A stretch of 45,101 nt of DNA from Clostridiales bacterium DTU053 (GTDB lineage: Bacteria; Bacillota; Clostridia; Oscillospirales; Acutalibacteraceae), in assembly GCA_001512765.1 (NCBI GenBank), contig LFSO01000018.1:1-45101 (forward strand). Reading direction: 5' to 3'. The notes under the pieces are model-generated. The model was not told the DNA's origin, ran no database searches, and saw only the letters and a list, made by a program, of their open reading frames with translations. Each line of letters begins with the position of its first letter. The stretch's first letter is position 1. The translations under genes and the position numbers were made by a program. This document shows positions 39,449 through 41,673 of this stretch, in pieces.

Positions 39449-39679
39449 TTATGAAAACTTCTTTTTATATAAGGAATTGAGATATTCGTCCCCGTAATAG
39501 TCGGATAAATCATCTTCATCGGAATCTATATCTGAAACTGCGTCAACAATATGAGCGTAGCTTTCCTCTTCAAATCTGTTTTTAGGAGGCGTTTGATAAA
39601 GACCCGTAGCGTCAAAGAACGAAACGGCACCCATTCTGCTTATATCGGGGTTTTTAAGTTTTTTAATCCTTTTATACAT
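39449..39679 (-). CDS. Hypothetical acidic small protein
   Basis: A 76-residue protein with a lysine-rich start (MYKRIKKLKNPDISRMG), a middle with no known motif and a strongly acidic stretch (DSDEDDLSDYYGDEY) before a basic tail. The ribosome binding site AAAGGAGG is excellent, which supports it as a real gene. It lacks signal or membrane segments. It is upstream of obgE in the same direction and directly downstream of the large AT-rich gene-free stretch. No homologous family is recognised. Confidence 0.65.
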   Translation of the reverse strand: MYKRIKKLKNPDISRMGAVSFFDATGLYQTPPKNRFEEESYAHIVDAVSDIDSDEDDLSDYYGDEYLNSLYKKKFS

Positions 39680-39933
39680 GGTTTTTCCTCCTTTTATATT
39701 TTGTTTAACTTAGTATTTGCACTAAAGGTCCGATTATAAATAGGGCTTATAGTTTCATAAGTTTGCCTTAAGATTAGCGTTTAAATTTTATAATGGATTT
39801 AAAGAGGAAAAACCGAAAATGTTTCTGCGTGACTTTGCCCCAAAAAAATTTATCTATATGCGGCTTGTCCTGTTTTTATGAAAAGAGGACATATATAAAG
39901 CTTTGATTATTAAATACAGTGTTTACTTTTTGT

Positions 39934-39947
39934 TGCATTTAAATGCA
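39934..39947. repeat. 14-bp perfect palindrome
   Basis: TGCATTTAAATGCA reads the same on both strands. It lies 10 bp from a second perfect palindrome. Chance alone makes such a pair unlikely though not impossible in AT-rich DNA; an operator is a natural explanation. Confidence 0.6.
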
Positions 39948-39957
39948 TGAGATAATG

Positions 39958-39973
39958 AACGGTATATACCGTT
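39958..39973. repeat. 16-bp perfect palindrome
   Basis: AACGGTATATACCGTT is a perfect 16-bp palindrome with CG-rich shoulders, of the type bound by dimeric repressors. No regulator gene is nearby and no promoter clearly overlaps it. Confidence 0.6.
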
Positions 39974-40264
39974 GAATATTTTCCCTAAAAATTACATTCA
40001 GAGGGTGTAGAAATTCGTGTAAAGTTTTTTTCTTTACAATTTTTCGGGCTATTTTTCCTAATTGGAAAAACAACGCTGAAATTTTGAACATTTTCAACAG
40101 AGTTTTGAACATACGCAAGTAAATAGCTTTACATTAAAATTTTTGCCCTTATCGCATACGAAAGCAGAGAAGCGCATAATATTTAATTGATTTCGCAAGT
40201 TTTTGTATAAATATACCGAATATTTTCTAATATTTTCCGTATGATTTCTAAATTTTTTAAAACG

Positions 40265-40303
40265 AATCTTGTCGCAAATTGCGTTTTATTTTTGGACAAG
40301 ATT
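40265..40303. repeat. Inverted repeat with inner stem
   Basis: AATCTTGTC (40265-40273) pairs with GACAAGATT (40295-40303), nine perfect base pairs; between them GCAA/TTGC can form a small inner stem (40274-40282). In RNA this is a modest stem-loop; in DNA it could be a binding site. Confidence 0.5.
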
Positions 40304-40394
40304 TCCCCGGAAAAGCATTATTAGAAGATGACGCAACCGAGGAAAACTTGCCGCTAAGAATCGCGCAATAGAAATGATTTTAAATTTAAACGCA

Positions 40395-40422
40395 AAAAAA
40401 GCGGCGCCCGAAAGAGCGCCGC
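40395..40422 (-). terminator. Rho-independent terminator of tyrS
   Basis: A GC-rich stem GCGGCGC/GCGCCGC (40401-40422) with an eight-base loop lies 21 nt after the tyrS stop codon and is followed on the minus strand by seven T residues. Confidence 0.88.
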
Positions 40423-40443
40423 CGTCAATTTTTTAAGTTTGGT

Positions 40444-41673
40444 TTACTTCTTCAGTACAGCCTTGTGGAATACCTTTTTGCCCTTCTTTATAATTACATG
40501 ACCCTTTTCAAAGTCGGAGGCTGAGAGGCTTGCGAAGGTGTCGGAGATTTTTTCGTCGTCAACCGTGATGCCGCCCTGCTGAATAAGTCTCCTTGCCTCG
40601 CCTTTGGAGGGCGCAAGCTTTGTGGCGACAAGCAGGTCGGCGACGGAAATTTTGCCGTCAACGAACAAATCCTCAGTCAGCTCGGTGGTGGGCATGTTAG
40701 CGTCGGAAACGCCCTTTTGGAACAGAGCTCTTGATGCCTCAAGCGCCTTCTGAGCCTCATCCTTGCCGTGGACAAGGGCGGTTACCTCGTAGGCGAGCAC
40801 CTCCTTGACTTTATTCAGCTCGCTGCCCTCGTACTTTTCGTACTCGGCTATCTGCTCCACGGGCACAAAGGTTAGCATCTTAAGGCAGTTGATGACATCG
40901 CTGTCGTCCACATTGCGCCAGTACTGGAAGAACTCATAGGGCGAGGTCTTTTCGGGGTCAAGCCACAGGGCGCCCTTTTCGGTCTTGCCCATCTTTCTGC
41001 CGTCGGAGGTAAGCAAAAGCTTAAAGGTCATGCCGTAAACCTCAGCGCCGTCCGCCCTTCTGTTAAGCTCAACGCCGCCTATGATGTTGCTCCACTGGTC
41101 GTCTCCGCCAAGCTGCATAATGCAGTTGTAATGCCTTCTGAGATGCAGGAAGTCGTAGCTTTGCATTATCATGTAATTCAGCTCAAAGAAGGAAAGTCCT
41201 CTTTCAAGCCTTTGTTTGTAGCACTCTGCGGCAAGCATTCTGTTGACGGAGAAGTGAACGCCCACATCTCTAAGCATATCGACATAGTTAAGTTTCAGCA
41301 GCCAGTCGGCGTTGTTGACTAAAATAGCCTTTCCGTCGGAAAAGTCAACGAGTCTTGACATCTGAGTCTTAAAGCACTCGATATTATGCTGGATTTCTTC
41401 TTTTGAAAGCATTTTGCGCATTTCCGTCTTGCCCGACGGGTCGCCGATAAGACCCGTGCCGCCGCCGAAAAGGATAATGGGGGTGTGACCGGCTTTTTGC
41501 AGATGGGAGATAACCATAATCTGCACAAAGTGTCCCACATGAAGGCTGTCTGCGGTGGGGTCAAAACCGATATAGAACCTGATTTTATCTTTTGTCAGAA
41601 GCTCTTTGATTTTTTCTTCATCGGTCATTTGAGCTATAATGCCTCTTGCCATCAGCTCGTCAAAAACATTCAT
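40444..41673 (-). CDS. tyrS: Tyrosyl-tRNA synthetase
   Basis: TyrS attaches tyrosine to tRNA-Tyr. The 409-residue class I enzyme has the HIGH-type motif in PTADSLHVGHF near 45-55, KMGKT (KMSKS-type) near 230, and a C-terminal S4 RNA-binding domain from about 345. The opening 'MNVFDELMARGIIAQ' is typical. The start has GGGAGG seven bases upstream. Expression is controlled by a T-box leader directly upstream, so readthrough should rise when tyrosine is scarce. Confidence 0.97.
   Translation of the reverse strand: MNVFDELMARGIIAQMTDEEKIKELLTKDKIRFYIGFDPTADSLHVGHFVQIMVISHLQKAGHTPIILFGGGTGLIGDPSGKTEMRKMLSKEEIQHNIECFKTQMSRLVDFSDGKAILVNNADWLLKLNYVDMLRDVGVHFSVNRMLAAECYKQRLERGLSFFELNYMIMQSYDFLHLRRHYNCIMQLGGDDQWSNIIGGVELNRRADGAEVYGMTFKLLLTSDGRKMGKTEKGALWLDPEKTSPYEFFQYWRNVDDSDVINCLKMLTFVPVEQIAEYEKYEGSELNKVKEVLAYEVTALVHGKDEAQKALEASRALFQKGVSDANMPTTELTEDLFVDGKISVADLLVATKLAPSKGEARRLIQQGGITVDDEKISDTFASLSASDFEKGHVIIKKGKKVFHKAVLKK

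Follow-up and report, generated by a model that had tools for sequence, protein, structure and literature searches.

What does a bacterium keep in several hundred base pairs of AT-rich DNA that encode no protein? The question is raised by a window of 45,101 nt (the whole stretch of DNA that was analysed) from the draft genome of Clostridiales bacterium DTU053, in which a preliminary description had marked a gene-free gap of about 760 bp, richer in A and T than the remainder and holding two perfect palindromes. On all three counts the description holds: by the list of open reading frames and a Pfam search, 764 bp (39680–40443) lack any credible gene; their GC content is 31.4% against 48.2% for the whole window; and both palindromes, of 14 and 16 bp, are present (Table 1).

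Contents of the gene-free stretch

The stretch is bordered on its left by a 76-aa gene (39449–39679, minus strand), with obgE beyond it on the same strand, and on its right by tyrS (40444–41673, minus strand). Both the 76-aa gene and obgE had been placed directly downstream, which is correct for the former only, as it intervenes before obgE. This small gene has no match in Pfam or NCBIfam and, among 60 relatives searched, is absent from all but the two species that make up the genus. Further to the right, an ordinary tyrS T-box leader (RF00230, 41732–41978) is the sole Rfam match at gathering threshold in the window. Within the stretch itself, sigma-70 promoter-like sites are not above the level of shuffled sequence, and the one open reading frame of at least 40 aa that lies fully inside it (59 aa, TTG start, 39939–40118, minus strand) has no match in Pfam.

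Perfect palindromes of at least 14 bp number seven in the whole window, and two or more of them fell within the stretch in 10 of 2,000 mononucleotide shuffles. The suggestion that they are operators, or that the stretch is a DNA-structural site, pointed in the right direction in that the 16-bp palindrome sits at a place conserved in the family, inside a conserved element with the look of a protein-binding region; the 14-bp one is kept within the genus and was not seen as a site outside it. Of the "several longer inverted repeats" also reported, most are imperfect AT-rich pairs, and two go beyond chance, the tyrS terminator and the repeat that we call IR1.

Between 39958 and 40132 lies a composite element, in the order 16-bp palindrome, IR1, three tandem DnaA boxes and IR2. 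The three-box core, which the preliminary description had missed, reads TTTTGAACA TTTTCAACA GAG TTTTGAACA (40082–40111); three such 9-mers arose in none of 5,000 shuffles of the stretch.

Table 1. Features of the stretch 39680–40443, in window coordinates
Feature	Coordinates	Strand	Remark
14-bp palindrome TGCATTTAAATGCA	39934–39947		Conserved within the genus only
16-bp palindrome AACGGTATATACCGTT	39958–39973		Positional equivalent of the family's palindrome TGTATATAC..GTATATACA
IR1, TGTAAAG-N7-CTTTACA	40018–40038		Shares its sequence type with the site at the ylxM-ffh promoter
DnaA box 1, TTTTGAACA	40082–40090	+	Three-box core
DnaA box 2, TTTTCAACA	40091–40099	+	Three-box core
DnaA box 3, TTTTGAACA	40103–40111	+	Matches the boxes of this genome's dnaA-dnaN gap
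IR2, GCAAG-N7-CTTTAC	40115–40132		Weaker copy of IR1
25-base block CTTATCGCATACGAAAGCAGAGAAG	40148–40172	+	Identical in G000 and G001; the TTATCGCATAC part also in G009
tyrS intrinsic terminator	40400–40423	-	Closes the right end of the stretch

Recurrence of the element in related Clostridia

A DNA search of the 60 relatives returned long matches only in G001, the sole further species of the genus; in more distant genera the matches were short, and several covered the three-box core. Alignment of four copies (G000, G001, G009 and G007) revealed a fixed order of a TGTAAAG-N7-CTTTACA-type repeat, the boxes and GCAAG-N7/8-CTTTAC, with the first repeat weaker in G007. A sequence-only model built from these four copies (R1) and run over 398 genomes of the family found matches at E ≤ 0.01 in 276 of them, mostly weak, and 30 loci at E ≤ 9.5e-8, the four seeds included; a second model (R2) was made from the 30 loci minus L115, L133 and L134. 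Much of the family carries weak or partial matches only. The aligned R1 loci add to the element the palindrome type TGTATATAC..GTATATACA, which in the window lies 45 bp upstream of IR1, and the full palindrome pattern occurs only in element-bearing loci within 2.46 Mb of sequence, a collection of non-random and mutually overlapping loci.

A strict pattern comprising IR1 and boxes 2 and 3 alone was also scanned over genome_contigs (84,980 species, with the window's own record possibly omitted). It returned 42 stretches, all from metagenome-assembled genomes titled Clostridia, Clostridiales, Clostridiaceae, Ruminococcaceae, Oscillospiraceae or Bacillota, which overlap the R1 set, some lying on identical contigs. 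Parts of the element that the pattern did not use recur in these copies: box 1 stands in register as ACA in 37 of 42 and as AC[AGT] in all 42; the upstream palindrome half-site is found in 39; and IR2, as CTTTAC right after the boxes, is found in 20, against 2 of 264 control windows, and is missing as such in 22. From IR1 to the boxes the gap measures 36, 42–45 or 52–55 bp, with no values between, and IR1–box spacers that agree in length share only 43% identity. The comparison with related genomes that had been suggested for this interval supports function, the element recurring in related Clostridia with its order, spacing and sites conserved.

Neighbouring genes and their orientation differ widely among genera while the element persists, and with the flanking genes so variable we dropped the idea of a fixed genomic position or target gene. 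A fixed orientation to replication was likewise discarded, the element following the skew in G313, G378 and G404 and opposing it in G343 and G026. No rule emerged for position relative to dnaA, because the 17 mostly closed genomes compared belong to genera whose matches were for the most part weak or partial and in several cases were the dnaA-dnaN region itself. In three genera a three-box core lies beside a gene that by eye resembles an 8-oxoguanine DNA glycosylase (L032:849–881, L030:5855–5889 and L028:5463–5492); G009 has such a glycosylase-side core plus a full element elsewhere.

Box specificity of DnaA and the ylxM-ffh promoter site

Excerpts of a published study name Asp433 among the residues of C. 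difficile and E. coli DnaA that recognize the DnaA box (PMC7561715). We surveyed this position in 57 DnaA proteins together with their flanking DNA, finding 37 of Asp type, 6 of Lys, Ser or Thr type, 7 of His type and 7 of Asn type. Near the dnaA genes of the Asp type, TTWTGAACA accounts for 0 of 78 boxes of the counted kinds; in the Lys/Ser/Thr type it accounts for 11 of 12, replacing TTWTCMACA, while the His and Asn types have one and two such boxes, respectively. (The dnaA loci of the residue-433 switch are L019, L072, L216, L217, L220 and L224.) The element co-varies in the same way: box 3 carries GA in all five Lys or Ser genomes, the window's included, and in none of 14 others; it does so also in the Thr-type G121, and the exception to the rule is G014, an Asn-type genome with a weak partial element and a GA box. 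On a DnaA tree the 19 element genomes all fall within one clade of 24 (support 100/99), and the Lys/Ser/Thr types occupy more than one place with Asn and His types between them, although kinship limits the number of independent switches that can be counted. The boxes of the element match the specificity of the host DnaA, and across these genomes the prediction that DnaA binds them is well supported.

What might bind the flanking repeats? GTAAAG-N7-CTTTAC is rare, occurring 0 to 5 times per genome in 23 element genomes (reversed control, 0 to 2), and its recurrent second place is the ylxM-ffh promoter. We found ylxM in 34 of 34 genomes, 4 of 30 ylxM loci that lacked the search motif being read separately; in 33, a perfect 12-position site with 7- or 8-bp spacing follows the −10 box, and in the 34th, G295, the promoter is cut by a contig edge. 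The promoter in the window genome reads TGTAAAGGAAACAGGCTTTACA, with ffh next after ylxM, and IR1 is a perfect match to the same GTAAAG-N7/8-CTTTAC type. The longer form TGTAAAG-N7/8-CTTTACA is perfect right after the −10 box at L321:1447–1468 and in 32 other genomes, and the promoter site is found as well in G044, which belongs to a different family within the order. When 21 genomes were scanned more widely, G273 showed just two sites, at ylxM and at the element, and G021, which has no R1 match, a single one. Many more sites of the GTAAAG type than in other genomes are present in G313, G363 and G252, and in the parts of G313 examined some lie within coding DNA, so the site may have uses beyond ylxM and the element; the extra GTAAAG-N8-CTTTAC sites (for example, L158–L164) are often paired 100–350 bp apart.

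The YlxM of the window genome matches the NCBIfam "YlxM family DNA-binding protein" and the solved structures PDB 1xsv and 1s7o. Because YlxM is a helix-turn-helix (HTH) protein whose own promoter carries a perfect site, it is the simplest candidate binder and the most likely factor to recognize GTAAAG-N7/8-CTTTAC. In S. mutans, YlxM is described as a signal recognition particle (SRP) accessory that binds Ffh and SRP RNA (PMC8546722, citing Williams 2014, in excerpt), and the literature passages available report no operator for it; the binder proposed here is this same family (UPF0122, PF04297) as the HTH protein encoded before ffh. Excerpts of a further paper list YlxM among genes co-evolving with polC (PMC3814617).

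A putative DnaA control locus and its alternatives

We propose, with a probability of about 0.55, that 39958–40132 is an oriC-remote DnaA control locus, resembling datA, DARS or a Bacillus DnaA-box cluster but employing another co-factor, probably YlxM. DnaA would assemble on the three tandem boxes; YlxM, the first-encoded protein of the ylxM-ffh SRP operon, would autoregulate that operon through GTAAAG-N7/8-CTTTAC and would also bind the repeats that flank the boxes, IR1 and, weakly, IR2; and an unnamed third factor, for which the 16-bp palindrome is a probable candidate site, would join both proteins in one complex. Such an assembly would withhold DnaA from oriC or alter its nucleotide state, a role that we propose by analogy with datA and DARS, and initiation would thereby track ylxM-ffh and with it growth or the targeting of membrane proteins. 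That a protein-targeting operon has sites of the flanking type at its promoter suggests that the element may tie the start of replication to cell growth. Fixed order and spacing, and sites that in compact genomes hardly occur except at ylxM and within the element, suggest a single complex and not a fortuitous neighbourhood. The comparisons show the conserved order and spacing of the sites, the co-variation of the boxes with the recognition residue of DnaA, the match of IR1 to the ylxM promoter site and the separation from oriC; YlxM as the binder, its joint binding with DnaA and an effect on initiation we infer. The most specific version, in which YlxM, as autoregulator of ylxM-ffh, co-binds DnaA at the element and DnaA activity is set by SRP or membrane-protein load, we advance only tentatively. 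Several observations weigh against the proposed locus: the copies that lack IR2 as CTTTAC, the additional GTAAAG-type sites of G313, G363 and G252, the variable neighbours and orientation to replication, the weak or partial matches in much of the family, and the exception G014.

Rather unlikely, in our estimation, is a passive cluster that titrates DnaA, with the flanking repeats left to a different task, for example the organisation of the nucleoid. Precedent exists in B. subtilis, whose DnaA-box clusters are considered to act in this way and where six clusters are described in the literature excerpts available as causing early initiation when jointly deleted, and the scatter of GTAAAG-type sites in G313, some of them in coding DNA, would suit repeats with a separate role. 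Against a passive cluster stand the fixed order of the sites, the discrete and roughly turn-spaced distances from IR1 to the boxes, and the near-absence of such sites elsewhere than at ylxM and the element when the genome is compact. Less probable again is a promoter-regulatory region through which DnaA and a GTAAAG-binding factor control neighbours, in this genome the 76-aa gene and obgE: the element is intergenic, lies upstream of the 76-aa gene and shares its inverted repeat with the ylxM promoter, but about 280 bp or more separate it from the start of that gene, and it stays in place across genera in which the neighbours and their orientation vary.

An AT-rich stretch with DnaA boxes, on a contig (contig 35) whose genes are nearly all on the minus strand left of about 43 kb and mixed to the right, might also be the chromosomal oriC or a spare origin. 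The GC skew, however, shows no switch on contig 35, nor does its sign change at the element of G343, G313, G378 or G404 or at the partial element of G026, setting aside single bins near zero or of opposite sign. In the draft window genome, dnaA is on a different contig from the element, and the dnaA-dnaN gap holds two TTTTGAACA boxes and an unwinding-type motif, TACTACTACTA, that we take to be a DnaA-trio; G001 has a similar motif in its gap, and none of this type is found in the element. Because the skew is unswitched in five relatives and dnaA-dnaN appears to be oriC, we dropped the element as a replication origin, a reading that we regard as very improbable, and place the element outside oriC. 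The dnaA contigs of both species of the genus break off at most 550 bp upstream of the gene (start of L025 on C23 of G000; start of L072 on C150 of G001), and neither piece upstream of dnaA contains an exact DnaA box. Scarcely credible is a noncoding RNA or relic gene, both raised in the preliminary description and favoured by the gap alone, given that the stretch has no credible open reading frame or Pfam match, no Rfam match at gathering threshold (chance-level ones at a lax threshold) and no compensatory pairs in an alignment fold of four relatives, and that the absence of compensatory changes, the discrete gaps and the diverged, unconserved spacers argue for proteins on DNA, not RNA.

How does the proposed control locus compare with known systems? 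Like DARS1 and DARS2 of E. coli, the element is intergenic, remote from oriC and built on a three-box core with partner-protein sites at set spacing. In DARS, however, boxes I and II are head-to-head (PMC5742627, in excerpt), whereas those of the element are all head-to-tail on the plus strand, and GTAAAG-type repeats and a palindrome stand in place of IHF and Fis sites; because of these two differences we do not file the element under DARS. It resembles datA in being intergenic and oriC-remote, with DnaA boxes and a partner site, but datA needs IHF and has a different box spacing. By analogy, the element might promote ADP release from DnaA, as DARS does, or stimulate DnaA-ATP hydrolysis, as datA does. 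According to excerpts of a 2026 review (PMC13220808), B. subtilis lacks IHF, datA and DARS, has six DnaA-box clusters outside oriC, and may or may not possess regulators of the DnaA-ADP/ATP balance, a point given there as unknown. The element resembles those clusters as a Firmicute chromosomal group of DnaA boxes outside oriC and differs in having candidate partner operators, dedicated ones not being mentioned for B. subtilis in the literature passages available. We found no composite of DnaA boxes and ylxM-type sites in the literature searched, which covers subscription journals only in part and so leaves room for an earlier description.

A DnaA element that is conserved in Clostridia, remote from oriC and furnished with dedicated partner sites offers a concrete locus and concrete proteins for testing, and the switch of residue 433 and box type offers a second testable result, with TTTTCCACA and TTTTGAACA as contrasting box probes. 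The shared site gives YlxM a candidate DNA target and suggests that replication may be linked directly to the SRP operon. If true, the element would represent a new class of the datA/DARS type, in which an SRP protein takes the place of IHF and Fis.
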